Assembly (NCBI GenBank): GCA_016186635.1
Contig: JACPLI010000024.1
Coordinates: 1 to 44,380, forward strand
Source: Candidatus Liptonbacteria bacterium
GTDB lineage: Bacteria; Patescibacteriota; Minisyncoccia; UBA6257; 2-01-FULL-56-20
Direction: 5' to 3'
DNA: 44,380 nt
Shown here: piece after piece, positions 5,237 through 40,061 of the stretch
Layout of the letters: every line of letters begins with the position of its first letter
How positions within the stretch are numbered: the stretch's first letter is position 1
Program-made: the position numbers and the translations under genes
The notes under the pieces: model-generated
Databases searched by the model: none
Seen by the model: only the letters and a program-made list of their open reading frames with translations
Told to the model about the DNA's origin: nothing

Positions 5237-5382
5237 TAAGATACCCTACCCGTTTTAGCCAAAATTCATTTTCCCATTCCCACCCTTCGACAAGCTCAGG
5301 GTGAAGTTGACGCCTTGCTTTTTTCATTTGCCTAGATATCCTATTTTTTTTAGCCAGAACTCATTCTCCCATTCCCACAGGC
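5237..5382. repeat. Duplicated 3' end of the downstream-reading nuclease gene plus hairpin repeat cccttcgacaagctcaggg
   Basis: 5241-5287 and about 5333-5382 are near-copies (ttagccaaaattcattttcccattcccac / ttagccagaactcattctcccattcccac). Confidence 0.75.
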
Positions 5383-6118
5383 GCTTTGCGCCCAAGAACG
5401 CCTCAAAATCGCTTTGCCAATAGGGGAATTCCTTGAGTTCGATTTCGCCCTTAAGCGCGGACCACTCGTGTTCGTGCTCGGGAATGCCGTTTGTGCGCCC
5501 CGCGAATCCGTTTGCGCCGCGCGGCTGGCGAATTTTCTCGCGCCCCCCCTTGAGCCGCCGAGTTGCGCCGCAGAGCGTGCACGTTTGGATTTGGTCAATC
5601 CGCAATATCCAGCGGGTTTGAAGATTCGAGAAGCTGCCCTTGAGGGCATCCATGTACGCGCTCGTTTGGAGGTTGTAATCGCGGTAAATTGCTTGCGAGG
5701 TTTTGATGTCCAAGACGCCGAATTTGCCGTCAATCAAAGCCAAGGCGTCCACCGTACCCGCATACCGCTCGCCGTAATGCACCACGCGGCGCTCGACGAG
5801 TTCGGGGGATACTTGGATATTCTTTCTATCAAGGAATTCCATAAATGAATTCACCGCGGGCTTTACCGATTCTGGAATTTCAGGATTCTTGCCGAGGAGG
5901 ATGCCCTCTACCGTTTCATGAATAAGCGTGCCTTCCTCGGCGGATTTTTGCGTGACATCCTGCGCCGCTTTGAAGTTTTCCGCCTCCGCGTAGAAACGCA
6001 AAAGCGCCGGCTTCGCCTTTATCGAGACGATCTTCGTCACGCGCGGGTACCACACGTTGTCAATCGTGTAACCGCTTGCTTCCTTGAAGCTGGCTTCGTC
6101 TTTAAATGAATCAAACAT
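5324..6118 (-). CDS. PD-(D/E)XK nuclease superfamily protein (RecB/Cas4-like fold)
   Basis: GTLIHETVEGIL, YAGTVDALALIDGKFGVLDIKTSQAIYRDYNLQTSAYMDAL = D...DIKT...Q core motif. Confidence 0.72.
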   Translation of the reverse strand: MFDSFKDEASFKEASGYTIDNVWYPRVTKIVSIKAKPALLRFYAEAENFKAAQDVTQKSAEEGTLIHETVEGILLGKNPEIPESVKPAVNSFMEFLDRKNIQVSPELVERRVVHYGERYAGTVDALALIDGKFGVLDIKTSQAIYRDYNLQTSAYMDALKGSFSNLQTRWILRIDQIQTCTLCGATRRLKGGREKIRQPRGANGFAGRTNGIPEHEHEWSALKGEIELKEFPYWQSDFEAFLGAKRLWEWENEFWLKKIGYLGK

Positions 6119-6119
6119 G

Positions 6120-6213
6120 AAGGAGTAATCGCGAATAACGCGAATTAAGGCAAATAACGCAAATCCATTCGCATTATTGAAATCAATATTAGCATTATTC
6201 GCGATTACTCCTT
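6120..6213. repeat. Long hairpin repeat (AAGGAGTAATCGCGAATAA family)
   Basis: Arms aaggagtaatcgcgaataa (6120-6138) and ttattcgcgattactcctt (6195-6213); right arm encodes the C-terminus of MurC. Confidence 0.85.
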
Positions 6214-7601
6214 AGCAAGGTATCGGTGTAGCGGACAATGTTTCCGGCGCCCATCATTGCGAGCACCGCTGAGCGGTGCGGAGTGATAAGTGATAAGTGA
6301 TAAGTGATAAGTTGAGATACAGCACTCTTTATCTTTTTAGGGTTTGCAACATAGAGCACTGGCTTTTTGGGATACTTCCTTTGTATCGCGGCGGTAAGGG
6401 TCTTTGCGGTGAAGCGGGGATTGATACGGTCTCGGCCGGCAACGTGGTATGTGGGAAGGAGCATGAGTGCATCGGCACCCTTGAACGCAGTCACGAAATC
6501 GGAGAAAAGTTTTTGAAGCCGAAGCGCCTGATGCGGCTGGAAGACGCAGATGAGAGGGGAGCGGGGGAATTTCTCGCGGAATGCGGCGAGGGTTGCCTTA
6601 ATTTCCGTGGGGTGATGGGCGTAGTCGTCGAAGACCAGAGTGCGAAGTGATGAGTGATGAGTGATGAGTGAAGACTCTGTTTTTTCACTTGCCACTTTCC
6701 ACTTAACACTTCCTCTGTATTCCATCCTTCGCCAGGCGCCGCGGTACTTTCCAAGGGCGCGGAGCGCGGTTTTTTTCGGCACACCGAGCGCTCGCGCGGC
6801 GGCCATTGCCGCTACGGCGTTTGAGATGTTGTGCATGCCGGGAATGCGGATTGCCCGGCGCACTTCGCGCGCAATCGGGCTTTTCAGCGAATACCATAGT
6901 ATTTTGCACTTGTGCGCCGCGGCAAGCTTCCTGACGTGCGCCGCGAGTGCGCGGAGCGGGGCGTTGTCGCGATTCAGCACAAGCGTGCCGCCGTGCCGTA
7001 CGCGCCCGAGGAATTGAAGGAATGCGTGCTGAGCGTCGCGAAGTGAGGGGTATATGTCGAGGTGTTCCCGGTCAACATTTGTGATTACGGCGACGGAAGG
7101 GGAGTAGTGGAGAAACGCCCGTCCGTATTCGTCGGCTTCGACAACCAATACATTGTCCGAACCTGCCCGAAAGTTAGAGTTCCTGAATTCACGAAGCAAC
7201 GTGCCGATGATAACTGTGGGGTTTTTTCCTCCCGCAGTGAGCATAAGCGCGATGAGCGCCGTCGTGGTGCTCTTTCCATGCGTTCCCGCGACGGCAATGG
7301 TTGTGGCGGATGCCGTGGTGATTTGACCAAGGAGTTCCGGATAGGAGAGTACCGGAATACCGTTTTTTCGCGCCGCGCGAAGTTCTTCGTGCGCCGGAGG
7401 AATCGCCTTACTGCGGACGACGAGCGCCGTGCCTTTCGGCAACCGCGCAATGCGGATGCCCTCGCGGCGCAGCGCGGCGGTGATGGGGGAGAGTTCCGCA
7501 TCAGACCCGGTAACACGCCACCCGTGCGCTTTGCACCAGCGCGCCAAGGCACTCATGCCGATGCCGCCGATGCCGATGAAGTGGATATGCTTCGTAAACA
7601 T
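6195..7601 (-). CDS. murC: UDP-N-acetylmuramate--L-alanine ligase
   Basis: HFIGIGGIGMSALA, VAGTHGKSTTTALIALML, FDDYAHHPTEIKATL. Confidence 0.94.
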   Translation of the reverse strand: MFTKHIHFIGIGGIGMSALARWCKAHGWRVTGSDAELSPITAALRREGIRIARLPKGTALVVRSKAIPPAHEELRAARKNGIPVLSYPELLGQITTASATTIAVAGTHGKSTTTALIALMLTAGGKNPTVIIGTLLREFRNSNFRAGSDNVLVVEADEYGRAFLHYSPSVAVITNVDREHLDIYPSLRDAQHAFLQFLGRVRHGGTLVLNRDNAPLRALAAHVRKLAAAHKCKILWYSLKSPIAREVRRAIRIPGMHNISNAVAAMAAARALGVPKKTALRALGKYRGAWRRMEYRGSVKWKVASEKTESSLITHHSSLRTLVFDDYAHHPTEIKATLAAFREKFPRSPLICVFQPHQALRLQKLFSDFVTAFKGADALMLLPTYHVAGRDRINPRFTAKTLTAAIQRKYPKKPVLYVANPKKIKSAVSQLITYHLSLITPHRSAVLAMMGAGNIVRYTDTLLRSNRE

Positions 7602-8972: not shown

Positions 8973-9437
8973 CTATAACAGCGTGCGCCCGAAGGCAAGG
9001 AGCCAGTTGATGATGCCGATGACAACTGATGCGATGAGCGAAACGGCGTGCGTCGCGATGACAACGAGCCACGCAATGAGGGCGATGGCGAGCGAGATTG
9101 CGGCACGGAGGATTTCCTGTGCGGTGCGGCTCAGCCACTCCCCTTTTCCTGAGAGCACGGGCGGCGTCCGCGAGATTGCCGATTTATTCAGGTCGACTCC
9201 GGCTTGAAGAAGGTTCTGGAGCGGCGCAGGCAATTTTTGGATGATGTCTGGTCCCACGAGCGGCGCGGCTTGAATTGCCGCGAGCTGTGAGGACGGGATG
9301 CCTTGGGCCTCTGCACCCAAAGGAAGGAATAGTATCATTCCTGCAATGCCCGCCGCAAGGAGCATCGCATGTTTTGATAATTGATAATTGTCCGCCCGAG
9401 GCGGATCCGCCTTTGGCGGAATAATTGATAATTTCAT
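8973..9437 (-). CDS. Secreted/membrane hypothetical protein; N-terminus encoded by a palindromic repeat
   Basis: ATGA overlap with the upstream M23 gene fixes a start at 9437 (MKLSIIPPKADPPRADNYQLSK), followed by hydrophobic signal sequence AMLLAAGIAGMILFLPLGAEA and C-terminal TM segment. Confidence 0.65.
   Translation of the reverse strand: MKLSIIPPKADPPRADNYQLSKHAMLLAAGIAGMILFLPLGAEAQGIPSSQLAAIQAAPLVGPDIIQKLPAPLQNLLQAGVDLNKSAISRTPPVLSGKGEWLSRTAQEILRAAISLAIALIAWLVVIATHAVSLIASVVIGIINWLLAFGRTLL
9375..9437. repeat. ttgataattgataattg / tccgcccgaggcggatccgcctttggcgga repeat
   Basis: Core at 9391-9420 recurs at about 12305-12335 and 21732-21762. Confidence 0.85.
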
Positions 9438-12266: not shown

Positions 12267-12410
12267 AAGGAGTAATCGCGAATAATGCGAATTAAGGTTG
12301 ATTCTCCGCCTGAGACGGATCCGCCTTTGGCGGAAATAACGCAAATGCATTCGCATTACCTGCCTGCCGGCAGGCAGGTTTGCCATAATTCGCGATATTA
12401 GCGATTACTC
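12267..12410. repeat. Composite nested repeat: AAGGAGTAATCGCG outer arms, CCGCC..GGCGG hairpin, and perfect palindrome acctgcctgccggcaggcaggt
   Basis: Outer arms 12267-12292 / 12385-12410; inner element about 12305-12335; 22-bp palindrome 12358-12379. Confidence 0.85.
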
Positions 12411-13537
12411 TCGGCGAGAAGCAGTATCTCCCGCGCGAGGACCTGTGCGGCATCCGGCTTGAAAAACGCGCGGGATGCGGCGCTCATTGCAGCGTATCTC
12501 TGCGGGTTGCTCATAATTTTTTTCATGGCTCCGATGAAGATTCCCACAAAGAGATTTTCCTCCTCGATAAGAACTCCGCCGCCCGCTTTCTCGAAGCTGT
12601 GCGCATTCGCGAGCTGGTGGTCATGGGCAGACTCCGCGAGCGGGATGAGAATCATGGGCTTTCCGAATGCCGCGGCTTCGGTGAGTGCGCCTGCGCCCGC
12701 CCGCGCGGCGATGCAATCCGCCGCCGCGAGCGCATTCTTCAGCTCCTCGTCGAGATACGGCACTGCTTTATACGGCGCCTCCGCGCCCGCCGATGCCCCG
12801 AGCGCGGCCCGCGAAAGCGACTCGATTTCGGTGAAGTTCCCCGCGCCGGTCTGGTGAAGCACCTGGGCTTCCTTACAAATGAGCGGGAGATGAGTAATGA
12901 TGAATTCGTTGATGCGGCGGGACCCTTGGGACCCCCCGAGAATAAGGAGAAGCGGCTGGTCGGGCTTGAATCCAAGCGCCTTTTTTGCGGCGGAAGAGTC
13001 GGGTTTCTCGGCAAGAAGCCACGGGCGGACGGGGTTTCCCACTACCGCTGTGCGCGCGGGGTCGAAGTAGCGCGTTGCCTCGCTGAAGCCGAGCGCGATG
13101 CGCGCGGCAAATCGCGAGGAGAGAATGTTGGTTACTCCCGGAATCGCATCCGATTCGTGGAGGAGCACCGGAATCCGATAGAACCACCCTGCAAAGACCA
13201 CCGGAAATGCCCCTGTGCCCCCTTTGGAGAAAATAACATCGGGCATGAGCCAGAAGAGGTGCCAGAACGCCTGGATAAGCCCGATGAAAAACTTTGGGAT
13301 GTCGAGTACGTTCTGAATCGTGGAGTAGCCCCGGAGTTTTGCACCGAGCACCGAATGGCGCCGGATGCCGCTTTTGTGGAGAAGCGCCGCAAATGCGTCC
13401 CGCGGCCCGAGGTACACAATATTGAGTTCCTCGTTCTTCTCCGACGCAAGTTTCTGGAGTTCTTCGGTTACCGCAAGAAGCGGGTAGATGTGCCCCCCGC
13501 TCCCGCCGCCGGTGAGTGCGATGCGTAATTTAGCCAT
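12398..13537 (-). CDS. murG: UDP-N-acetylglucosamine--N-acetylmuramyl-(pentapeptide) pyrophosphoryl-undecaprenol N-acetylglucosamine transferase
   Basis: RIALTGGGSGGHIYPLLAV, ILGGSQGSRRIN, RAGAGALTEAAAFGKPMILIPL. Confidence 0.93.
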   Translation of the reverse strand: MAKLRIALTGGGSGGHIYPLLAVTEELQKLASEKNEELNIVYLGPRDAFAALLHKSGIRRHSVLGAKLRGYSTIQNVLDIPKFFIGLIQAFWHLFWLMPDVIFSKGGTGAFPVVFAGWFYRIPVLLHESDAIPGVTNILSSRFAARIALGFSEATRYFDPARTAVVGNPVRPWLLAEKPDSSAAKKALGFKPDQPLLLILGGSQGSRRINEFIITHLPLICKEAQVLHQTGAGNFTEIESLSRAALGASAGAEAPYKAVPYLDEELKNALAAADCIAARAGAGALTEAAAFGKPMILIPLAESAHDHQLANAHSFEKAGGGVLIEEENLFVGIFIGAMKKIMSNPQRYAAMSAASRAFFKPDAAQVLAREILLLAESNR

Positions 13538-15422: not shown

Positions 15423-15466
15423 GTTGCTATATTTTCTTATTCGCGCGAATAAGAAAATATAGCAAC
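15423..15466. promoter_or_regulatory. Perfect 44-bp palindrome upstream of P1 (class I)
   Basis: gttgctatattttcttattcgc/gcgaataagaaaatatagcaac. Confidence 0.7.
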
Positions 15467-18100: not shown

Positions 18101-18177
18101 TTATCGCACGAATTTATGAATTATTACGAAAATACGAATTCGTATGTTCGGTAGCCGTTCGTACATTCGTGCGATAA
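18101..18177. repeat. Long intergenic inverted repeat (TACGAA family)
   Basis: ttatcgcacgaat (18101-18113) / attcgtgcgataa (18165-18177), inner atacgaattcgtat. Confidence 0.8.
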
Positions 18178-21695: not shown

Positions 21696-21818
21696 GGAGT
21701 AATCGCGAGTAATGCGAATTAAGGTTGATTCTCCGCCCGAGGCGGATCCGCCTTTGGCGGAAATCGCGCGAATCCATTCGCGTTATGTGCGGTACTTTGG
21801 GTCATTCGCGATTACTCT
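21696..21818. repeat. Composite AGGAGTAATCGCG / CCGCCCGAGGCGG hairpin repeat
   Basis: Left arm aggagtaatcgcgagtaatgcgaattaaggttgattctccgcccgaggcggatccgcctttggcgg; right arm attcgcgattactct encodes the ComEC C-terminus. Confidence 0.82.
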
Positions 21819-23258
21819 CTTGCGCCGCGCGATAAACGCGGCAAGGAGAAGATAATAGCCTGCCACCGTGGCGGGAGAGAAGAAAAAATTGCTCACCGGA
21901 AGCGTCCATTGCGCGAAGGCGTGAATCACGCCGATTTCATAGGACGTGAGAAGGCGAATCGCCTCTGCGAGCGGGAATGCGAGAAAGGGAGCGAGCCAGT
22001 GCGTCACTCCCAGCACGAAACCAAGCCCCATGGTAACGGGGATGAACGGGATGATGAGAATATTCGCGAACACCGAGGTAAGCGACACGCTTCCGAATGC
22101 GGTGAGAAGGACCGGAAGAACTCCCATTTGGGCGCCGAGCGTCGTATCCACGTTCTCCTTCCACGAGAAGAACCCCTTGTCCTTTGCGGTATGCCAAAGC
22201 GTGCGGAGCGCGGGACCCATGTAGGTTACGCCGAGGAGACTCAAAAACGAGAGCAGAAACCCGAGGTCTTCCCGAAGGATGGTGGGGTCCCACGCGAGCA
22301 TAAGCGCGGCGGCGGCGGCGATGGCGTACGCCTGGTCCCGTGGACGCCCCGTCCCTTCAGCGAGAAGCCCCGCGATTCCCATGAGTGCCGCGCGCACGAC
22401 TGACGCTTCCGTACCCACCATCCCCACGAAGAGGAGGATGCCGATGACCGAAATCCAGATGGCGATGCGCCTGCTCACAAAAAATGCCGCGCCTTTGCCG
22501 ATGTTCGCGGCAAGCACGCTGATGTTGTAGCCGGAAACCGCGACGATGTGGAGCGTACCAGAGACTGCCATATCCTCCTTTAATTCCTTCGAGAACGTGC
22601 TCCGGGCACCCAGCGTGATGCCGGAGAGAAGCGCCGCATGGTCGGGCGGGAGCACTTGCTCATATCCGCGCATCACCGCGCGTTTGACGGCAACGAGATG
22701 CTCTTTCAGCCAGTTGCCCCTGTGTCGACCTGTGCGCTCCATATGCGGGAACTCGGCGAGAAGCGTGCCGTTATCTTCCGTAATGCTTCCGCGGAAAGAA
22801 AAAAGGTCTCCGTACTGCATGTCCCGCGCCGGCGCCACGACGGTAACTTTTCCCCGATACGGCTCTTGGAGTTCGACCGTAAACCGGGAAAGCATGCTCG
22901 AAGTACGCGGTTCTTCCACGACGATTCCCTCGAACGCCGCGGGAATGCCCTCCGGCGGAAATACGGTGAAGTTGCTTGCCGCACGGGTGTAAAACGCGTA
23001 ATAGCCGAATCCGAAGAGAAGCGTGCCGAGCATGATGTACAGCACGCGGAGGCGCGTTCCTCGGAGGTAATGAAGCCACAGCGCGGCGCATGCGCCTCCC
23101 GCAAGCACCCAGAAAAGGGGCGCGTGGAATGCCGCCGCGGCAGCTCCCGCAAGAAATCCGAGGAGCGCTTCAAGCGCGAAGTCCGCCACCATCGCCATAC
23201 CTCTGTCTCCATTCCTTAATTGCAGCATGGTTCCCTTCACGAAGGATGCGGGGGACAT
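21783..23258 (-). CDS. comEC: ComEC/Rec2-family competence channel protein
   Basis: HAALLSGITLGARSTFSKELKEDMAVSGTLHIVAVSGYNISVLA, multi-TM. True start probably near 23198. Confidence 0.86.
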   Translation of the reverse strand: MSPASFVKGTMLQLRNGDRGMAMVADFALEALLGFLAGAAAAAFHAPLFWVLAGGACAALWLHYLRGTRLRVLYIMLGTLLFGFGYYAFYTRAASNFTVFPPEGIPAAFEGIVVEEPRTSSMLSRFTVELQEPYRGKVTVVAPARDMQYGDLFSFRGSITEDNGTLLAEFPHMERTGRHRGNWLKEHLVAVKRAVMRGYEQVLPPDHAALLSGITLGARSTFSKELKEDMAVSGTLHIVAVSGYNISVLAANIGKGAAFFVSRRIAIWISVIGILLFVGMVGTEASVVRAALMGIAGLLAEGTGRPRDQAYAIAAAAALMLAWDPTILREDLGFLLSFLSLLGVTYMGPALRTLWHTAKDKGFFSWKENVDTTLGAQMGVLPVLLTAFGSVSLTSVFANILIIPFIPVTMGLGFVLGVTHWLAPFLAFPLAEAIRLLTSYEIGVIHAFAQWTLPVSNFFFSPATVAGYYLLLAAFIARRKRVIANDPKYRT

Positions 23259-29636: not shown

Positions 29637-29666
29637 TATTTTCTTATTCGCGCGAATAAGAAAATA
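29637..29666. promoter_or_regulatory. Perfect 30-bp palindrome upstream of P4 (class I)
   Basis: tattttcttattcgcgcgaataagaaaata. Confidence 0.7.
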
Positions 29667-29982: not shown

Positions 29983-30070
29983 ATGCCAATATGCTAATGG
30001 TACGAATGATACTAATAATACGAATAATTCGCGTTATTAAAAATCAAGATTTGCGTTATTCGCGATTACT
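29983..30070. repeat. Mixed intergenic repeat (ATACTAAT motif plus right half of AGGAGTAATCGCG family)
   Basis: gccaatatgctaatggtacgaatgatactaataatacgaataattcgcgttatt...gcgttattcgcgattactcct. Confidence 0.65.
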
Positions 30071-30071
30071 C

Positions 30072-31850
30072 CTATGCGACTTCTGATTGGTAGCAACTTT
30101 CACAATACACTATTTCCGGCCGGTCGGGCGCATAACTGGTTTCAAATTCATTCGGACAACGTCCCTCGGGGTGATGCGTATGCTTTGCGGAGTTCTTCCA
30201 AACTTTATAATCGCACATGCATTGCCGATGCCATAACTTGAGCGGATTTCGAAGCGCGAAACGGTCCTTATGCCGGCATTCCACGCATTTCCGAGGTAGT
30301 GCAATTCCCTCGCGTTTCAAAAAATCGAACTCCGCGGGCATAATGCGATATGCTCGTCCACAATTCGGACAACCTATAATCTCTTTGCGGATTGAGTCAT
30401 CTACATCCTTAATGTCGTCGGGGAGGTTTTCTGCCTTGAGCGTCGGCGTATGCGGATAGGGTTCCGGGTCATGCCACGAATACCCCGCAGCGAGTGCATC
30501 TTCTTTGCCGAGTGGAAAGAGTTCGAGCGCCATCGTTTCATTGTACGCAAAGGGCGAAATCTCCGCAGGGAAGAATTCTCCGTAGCGGTATACTTTCCCT
30601 TCCTTGTTCTTGTAGGGATTGTTATTCATTTGCTCAATTATCTTTGCTTTTACCTTTTCATACTCGCTTTGGGAATACTGCTTATTCAAGATACAGTACT
30701 GCCGTTTCCGAAGCCCCGTGCATCCAAAGAGGTCGGTAGAACTTTGGCACCACTCGCAATAGGCGCTCCGTTCATTCGCATCGCATTGCATAACGAACGA
30801 TGTCCGCGTGTTTCCGAAACCTGCCGAGATAGCCTCATACACGAGCTCTGTGCTCGCCGCGTAGGCAACGTCATACGAATCCTTGCTCTTGATGTTGCGC
30901 ATGCAAAAGCGAAGATTCTCACCGTCGTAGAGATCGAATGAATCGCGGACATTTTTCGAATTCTCAATATTGTTTCCGATGCATGCGGTTATCTTCATCA
31001 GATTCCCAAACTTATGAAGCGCGCCCCGCATTACGCACTGAAACTCCTCCCGATACCGTTCACGCGCGGCGTGGCTCCCCATGTTCATGCGCGCCATCGC
31101 TTCGGCGTACTGCTCTTTAGTGAGCTGTTCATTGCGAAAGACGAACTGTTTATTGCGGAGGTTCGAACTCATGAAACAGCTCTGGCAATTCACGCAGTCA
31201 AAAAGGAATGCTGAATCGAGACAGTCTCGTGAACGAACAAGATATTTTGAACGATATATGCGTGAACAATCAACGTCCTCATAGCAACGCTCCGAATCCT
31301 TTACGTAGAAACAATCGAAGATATCTTTAGATTTATCAATGTTCCGCGAGTGATATACGTTTTCCGAGAAAATCACGGAATGGGAAAGGTAGACATTCTT
31401 ATTATCCGCGATGTAATTTGCATAATCCGCATTTATATTTGTGTGGATATGCATGATGCCAATCCGCGGCACTTTTCTCATAAGTTCTTGGAATTGTTCA
31501 AAGAAGGATTTGTTCCAGTCATAGTCCTGTCCATACGCGAGTGGGTCCCAGTTATCCGAATACCAGCACTCTTTGCAGTACACCGTGAACGGCTTGCCTG
31601 CCTCGCCCGACGCGAGTTGAGGTGGGTCGGGTGAATACATCGAGACAAACGATTTCTTGCAAAGGTCGCACGTGCGCTTGTAGAGCGAGCGCTCGTTCCG
31701 AAACGTCATCCGGCGCTGGAGCCGGCAATCCGGGCAGAACGTCGGCGGCGGGACCTTCACGCGCTCGTAGAACTGGAAATCCTCCGGCTCAACTGTGAAT
31801 TGTTGTTTGCAGTTTTGACAGGTCCTTATTTTGGAGTTCATTAGTTTCAA
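30072..31850 (-). CDS. Cys-rich double zinc-ribbon / beta-helix-like family protein, paralog P5
   Basis: CQNCKQQFTVEPEDFQFYERVKVPPPTFCPDCRLQRR...ILNKQYSQSEYEKVKAKIIEQM...CPNEFETSYAPDRPEIVYCESCYQSEVA. Start at 31850 or 31841. Confidence 0.9.
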   Translation of the reverse strand: MKLMNSKIRTCQNCKQQFTVEPEDFQFYERVKVPPPTFCPDCRLQRRMTFRNERSLYKRTCDLCKKSFVSMYSPDPPQLASGEAGKPFTVYCKECWYSDNWDPLAYGQDYDWNKSFFEQFQELMRKVPRIGIMHIHTNINADYANYIADNKNVYLSHSVIFSENVYHSRNIDKSKDIFDCFYVKDSERCYEDVDCSRIYRSKYLVRSRDCLDSAFLFDCVNCQSCFMSSNLRNKQFVFRNEQLTKEQYAEAMARMNMGSHAARERYREEFQCVMRGALHKFGNLMKITACIGNNIENSKNVRDSFDLYDGENLRFCMRNIKSKDSYDVAYAASTELVYEAISAGFGNTRTSFVMQCDANERSAYCEWCQSSTDLFGCTGLRKRQYCILNKQYSQSEYEKVKAKIIEQMNNNPYKNKEGKVYRYGEFFPAEISPFAYNETMALELFPLGKEDALAAGYSWHDPEPYPHTPTLKAENLPDDIKDVDDSIRKEIIGCPNCGRAYRIMPAEFDFLKREGIALPRKCVECRHKDRFALRNPLKLWHRQCMCDYKVWKNSAKHTHHPEGRCPNEFETSYAPDRPEIVYCESCYQSEVA

Positions 31851-33545: not shown

Positions 33546-33642
33546 TATCGCACGAATTTACGAACTTCCTACGAAAATACGAATTGGTTCTGTTCGTATG
33601 TTCGTACCGCCAGCTGGCGGTGATTCGCGTGTTCGTGTGATA
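33546..33642. repeat. Long TACGAA-family inverted repeat upstream of P6, with nested palindrome accgccagctggcggt
   Basis: tatcgcacgaa (33546-33556) / ttcgtgtgata (33632-33642); inner 16-bp palindrome about 33606-33621. Confidence 0.75.
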
Positions 33643-33643
33643 T

Positions 33644-40027: not shown

Positions 40028-40061
40028 CTTATTTTCTTATTCGCGCGAATAAGAAAATAAG
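40028..40061. promoter_or_regulatory. Perfect 34-bp palindrome upstream of P8 (class I)
   Basis: cttattttcttattcgcgcgaataagaaaataag. Confidence 0.7.

Follow-up and report, generated by a model that had tools for sequence, protein, structure and literature searches.

A dispersed palindromic element abuts start codons, supplies stop codons and short protein tails in a Patescibacteria genome, and shares its arms with GxxExxY nuclease genes

The window, by which we mean the whole 44,380-nt stretch of DNA analysed here (contig JACPLI010000024.1), carries murC and the gene following it on the minus strand, and the spacer between the two is occupied by a hairpin at positions 6120-6213. The features of this junction are:

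5324-6118, minus strand: element-adjoining gene, termed a nuclease in the initial annotation; conserved start, 80% identity from residue 1 in genome G002
6120-6138, plus strand: left arm, adjoining the start codon (ATG 6118-6116, minus strand)
6122-6211, plus strand: element of the murC/nuclease-like junction, GGAG...CTCC core, 90 nt, its asymmetric orientation running against the genes
6195-6213, minus strand: right arm, read as (R)SNRE and stop of MurC
6195-7601, minus strand: MurC, ending DTLL-RSNRE, with RSNRE and the stop derived from the element; relatives end in TDTLLKK or similar

As the initial annotation had claimed, the two 19-mer arms are identical and the spacer is essentially one hairpin. 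Indeed, the near-perfect inverted repeat reaches 26 nt per arm at 92% identity and takes in the whole spacer (6119-6194) except base 6119, and the 90-nt strand has a predicted fold of -42.5 kcal/mol (z -7.9). The left arm was likewise correctly placed beside the ATG at 6118; since the GGAG...CTCC core spans 6122-6211, the true gap between core and ATG is 3 nt. The proposal that the right arm forms the MurC C-terminus held for RSNRE and its stop but not for TDTLL, which is native: MurC of relatives ends in TDTLLKK, LLI or a TDTLLI-like sequence, so that only about five MurC residues are element-made. Chance is excluded as the origin of the repeat by six arm matches in the window at ≤3 mismatches, against 0.01 expected from shuffles, and by 100 arms (52 + 48) in the 921-kb genome at ≤2 mismatches, against 0 with a reversed-pattern control. 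The gene at 5324-6118 had no Pfam or NCBIfam match in a profile search. Apart from the hairpin, MurC contains short repeats (agtgataagtgataag; agtgatgagtgatgag) at 6284-6315 and 6646-6705, in frame and translated as SQLITYHLSLIT and SSLITHHSSL.

Further members of the same family lie elsewhere in the window:

12269-12411, minus strand: second copy, longer because two palindromic modules (12305-12334 and about 12361-12380) are nested in it; gives the ESNR end and stop of MurG
12398-13537, minus strand: MurG, with the element-derived end LLLA-ESNR; relatives end in LLLGKN or LLLAGIL
21696-21818, minus strand: third copy, 1 nt off the ATG of the 20828-21694 gene; gives the VIANDPKYRT end and stop of ComEC
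21783-23258, minus strand: ComEC (PF03772), ending RKR-VIANDPKYRT, with a 10-residue element-encoded tail
30056-30074, minus strand: arm from another copy, partly decayed; the gene at 30072-31850 takes its TAG stop from it

The ATG that adjoins the 12269-12411 copy is not the start of gltX. Palindromes TCCGCCnGAGnCGGATCCGCCTTTGGCGGA and CTGCCTGCCGGCAGGCAGG occur nested in element copies or solitary (12305-12334, 12361-12380, 21732-21761, 9391-9420). A second palindromic family, with 34 arms in this genome, is represented in the window by three elements (no strand assigned):

2520-2594: second-family element
18102-18176: second-family element with TATCGCACGAAnnTACGAA ends, adjoining a start codon (ATG 18092)
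33546-33643: second-family element filling a stop-start spacer (ATG 33537)

Between 13637 and 43695 the window also holds about ten paralogues of 550-640 aa with an N-terminal CxxC...PPPTxCPxCR motif; one of them, searched against profiles, matched nothing in Pfam or NCBIfam. A perfect 30-bp palindrome, TATTTTCTTATTCGCGCGAATAAGAAAATA, stands shortly 5' of three of these paralogue starts (15430-15459, 29637-29666, 40030-40060).

The murC hairpin belongs to a repeat family with about 60 copies in its host, a Patescibacteria genome of 921 kb in 31 contigs (97.85% complete). We fetched the stretches around the copies and read out 44 complete elements, whose consensus is about 89 nt long (GGAGTAATCGCnAATAATGCGAATnGAGGCAAATAACGCAAATAGATTCGCATTATTGAATCCAnATTnGCATTATTCGCGAATACTCC). 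They are predicted to fold as long imperfect hairpins (z -6 to -9), with nested palindromes inside the longer copies, and both ends carry a GGAG tag (GGAG...CTCC). The ends differ at position 7 (A/T) and position 12 (T/G), and the element therefore has a direction. The family is patchily distributed, being present in 12 of 61 genomes; in a collection of 84,980 species, 24 stretches matched, every one with a group named in its title being from Patescibacteria, and a search of viral contigs with the pattern gave no match.

The stop codon of the preceding gene is element-made in nearly every case, and the native stop is usually missing on the element's stop side. Of these stops, 15 fall at +1 and are TAG codons formed from a final TA of the gene and the G of the element; others fall at +7 (7 ends, tail E), at +14/+17 (10 ends, SNR or SNRE) or at +36 (6 ends, VIANNANxGK). 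All three frames are closed within 40 nt in 26 of the 44 elements on the sense strand, compared with 6 of 44 on the antisense strand and 16% of shuffled sequences. This early closure of every frame by the sense strand (TAA at +7, +14/17 and +36) would help to explain why tight co-directional junctions can tolerate the element. The tails amount to 1-12 residues on proteins otherwise of full homologous length. The claim of the initial annotation that a dispersed repeat of mobile type has supplied stops and short C-terminal tails is therefore sustained, both by these stop positions and by the relatives. The MurG and ComEC tails could be read directly from the arms of the other copies, as predicted, and when the C-termini of MurC, MurG and ComEC were compared, the relatives lacked the tails; homology of ComEC to G002 ends exactly before VIANDPKYRT.

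The murC/nuclease-like junction of other genomes is short, ranging from a TAATG overlap to about 27 nt. Among the G002 junctions orthologous to element-bearing ones, some are spaced by 5, -29, 1 and -10 nt and others more widely, and several of the wider ones are filled by other repeats. Removal of the element from the sequence leaves stop and start codons tightly joined again in roughly half of the cases, while the others have lost the native stop; insertion was thus not simply precise. Precise insertion into TAATG or ATGA junctions was accordingly rejected as a full explanation, fitting only about half. A search for two near-identical genomes, one with the site occupied and the other without the element, found none, the nearest relatives being 55-67% identical in MurC and MurG.

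Placement together with preferred orientation is a stronger regularity than the tails, and one that the initial annotation did not contain. With genes called by a simple hexamer gene caller around the copies, all 29 complete elements flanked by called genes have the order stop-element-start in one direction, against a background in which 117 of 144 junctions are co-directional (p 0.002). At 37 of the 45 start ends the gap between element and start codon is 0-4 nt, in most cases 0-1 nt, and 25 of 29 asymmetric elements point the same way as the genes (p 1e-4), the murC copy being among the four exceptions. Start-adjacent placement recurs in other Paceibacterales (gap of 0-1 nt in 16/19; 11/11 in G054), while the second palindromic family shows a looser adjacency, 4-10 nt outside the pattern. 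The starts concerned are real: genes such as rplN and galT are recognisable by sequence, and proteins downstream of elements mostly align from residue 1 with their G002 orthologues. For the same reason ATG as a bare sequence target is inseparable from a preference for start codons and was set aside, nearly all element-adjoining ATGs opening a real gene.

Such a pattern could arise purely as survivors' bias, with random insertions tolerated at gene edges. This reading concerns placement only and is compatible with the mobile element that we favour below; some native junctions are indeed tight or overlapping, as the G002 spacings illustrate. However, the start gaps cluster at 0-1 nt against a median background co-directional spacer of about 57 nt, and the orientation bias persists when antisense copies with open frames are discounted (p 0.004). 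We regard survivors' bias as a serious possibility but would not expect it to account for the placement.

The same start-codon position and orientation bias, along with the strong predicted RNA fold, would also suit a domesticated hairpin at operon junctions, regulatory or active in mRNA processing (for example a processing site by the AUG) and selected for its effect on expression. Against this, the left and right arms of individual copies do not covary (p 0.96), giving no indication that individual hairpins are under selection; orthologous G002 junctions are without the element, several of them having other repeats in the spacer; and no Rfam family matched in the window. We consider this alternative very improbable. 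Translation signals were also inspected: among 137 called genes in the fetched loci of this genome (G000), 21 have Shine-Dalgarno-like motifs compared with 17 after shuffling, which is no enrichment. The idea that the GGAG of the left arm acts as a Shine-Dalgarno sequence across the hairpin was rejected on these counts, and, as the organism shows no such signal, translation could proceed despite a hairpin next to the ATG, which would be a second reason why the insertion is tolerated. In the G000 loci, several upstream regions have a TATAAT-like box whose distance to the ATG is about 8-14 nt, a sequence feature that suggests leaderless transcripts.

A 135-aa gene matching PF13366 (E 2.6e-33) and TIGR04256, GxxExxY (E 4.5e-33), interrupts one copy of the family (L001, 2514-2981). 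The flanks of the gene align to consensus positions 2-44 and 45-89, which places the gene at the hairpin centre, with one half-element on each side. Loci with a GxxExxY gene between inverted arms of this family are L001/L132, L130 and L153, and beyond this genome such arms flank GxxExxY genes in G038 and G021; this genome's second GxxExxY gene sits inside the second palindromic family. The association extends beyond these arms. Strong inverted repeats flank 40 of 54 Patescibacteria GxxExxY genes compared with 1 of 146 control genes (Fisher p 6e-29), the controls coming from MurC- or MurG-selected loci, and across the phylum these repeats comprise many unrelated arm sequences. The GxxExxY proteins conserve the PD-(D/E)XK residues D...ExK...Q. 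G058 has 16 arms at ≤1 mismatch yet no PF13366 gene, and the arms of the G111 GxxExxY gene have no dispersed gene-less copies in that genome.

In several genomes the GxxExxY gene lies in frame within another gene, the hosts being named from sequence motifs. Four genomes (L131, L135, L136, L151) carry it at the same place in LepA, before NLIDTPGHSD, and two (L128, L137) in RecG, before LSMSATPIPRT; further cases, likewise in long ORFs, are L139 and L156, and glycosyltransferase-like ORFs are also among the hosts. In these in-frame cases the inverted arms are translated. Gene-less arm-like stretches (e.g. QINADGIRENPRVNPRESA) likewise occur in frame in LepA and RecG.

The family resembles REPs and MITEs in its size, in having inverted ends with a GGAG tag, in its dispersal and in donating stops, and could accordingly be a MITE or REPIN moved by a conventional transposase (of IS630 type at TA, or RAYT/Y1), with GxxExxY a mere passenger. 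Yet the genome, at 97.85% completeness, has no Y1 transposase (PF01797), DDE_3 (PF13358) or DDE_Tnp_1, while control genomes were positive (5/14 for Y1). Although TA is the commonest last dinucleotide at element flanks, it accounts for only 30 of 112, and paired flanks inspected by eye have no consistent target-site duplication, of TA or otherwise. An IS630-type MITE is disfavoured by the lack of both TA duplication and DDE_3, and RAYT/Y1 identity was dropped for want of PF01797. The many unrelated arm families around GxxExxY genes throughout the phylum also fit a passenger poorly, and we judge this explanation unlikely.

We therefore favour a non-autonomous, MITE- or REPIN-like mobile palindromic element whose parent would carry a GxxExxY PD-(D/E)XK gene at its centre; the short form would have arisen by loss of that gene, which the half-elements on either side of the gene in the L001 copy would fit. 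As a whole we consider this probable. Against it count the lack of an evident target-site duplication and of an occupied and unoccupied genome pair, the loss of the native stop at about half of the junctions, the absence of arm covariation, and the observations on G058 and G111. The label of intergenic repeat in the initial annotation accordingly stands as regards the supply of stops and tails, but the repeat is better seen as the gene-less form of a GxxExxY-carrying element. Mobility would be conferred by the GxxExxY nuclease, which may drive copying or insertion; short forms would arise as the parent loses the gene, and gene-less copies may then move in trans or be relics. The net effect would be to set apart gene pairs that overlap or abut, and to give the upstream protein 0-12 extra tail residues. 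We more tentatively propose, short of calling it probable, that GxxExxY proteins in general, a widespread and uncharacterised PD-(D/E)XK family, serve as mobility nucleases for palindromic elements of a new class, which insert compatibly with translation, either in frame within conserved motifs (LepA, RecG) or exactly 5' of starts and oriented with the gene, and from which gene-less hairpins such as that of murC derive. In the literature consulted, which covered journals in part and excluded preprints, we found no description of GxxExxY as a mobile element, and the link is provisionally regarded as new.

If this reading is true, a nuclease family without known function would gain a role and a gene-less class of hairpins a gene-carrying parent, and the landing site of a mobile element would be tied to start codons and gene direction. 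It would also mean that, in a reduced genome, genes that overlap can be parted by a selfish repeat, which can also give essential proteins (MurC, MurG) new ends. Among known systems, REPs and REPINs have tagged palindromic ends of GTAG or GGAG type. The elements described here resemble REP/REPIN systems with RAYT in forming tagged inverted pairs of about 90-100 bp, in high copy number (100 arms here), in lying next to genes and in supplying TAG; unlike them, they come with a GxxExxY PD-(D/E)XK gene instead of Y1, adjoin start codons and are oriented with the genes. GTAG REP termini often give TAG stops to flanking ORFs (PMC3733652), and the Coxiella elements QMITE1/2 overlap gene 3' ends and can add C-terminal residues (PMC5896051), so that stop supply alone is a known effect. 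With such bacterial MITEs our family shares short, gene-less inverted repeats that overlap gene 3' ends, but it has no evident duplication or matching IS and does adjoin start codons. Rickettsia palindromic elements are tolerated in frame in coding genes and are not known to carry a gene; the GxxExxY relatives in frame in LepA and RecG are comparable, whereas the murC-type family is found at gene edges. A further parallel is offered by inteins and homing endonuclease elements, which likewise place a nuclease gene in frame at a conserved host motif (here in LepA and RecG). On reading the in-frame GxxExxY ORFs we recognised no protein-splicing domain, and, unlike inteins, GxxExxY elements have inverted-repeat arms and encode a PD-(D/E)XK fold of the GxxExxY family.
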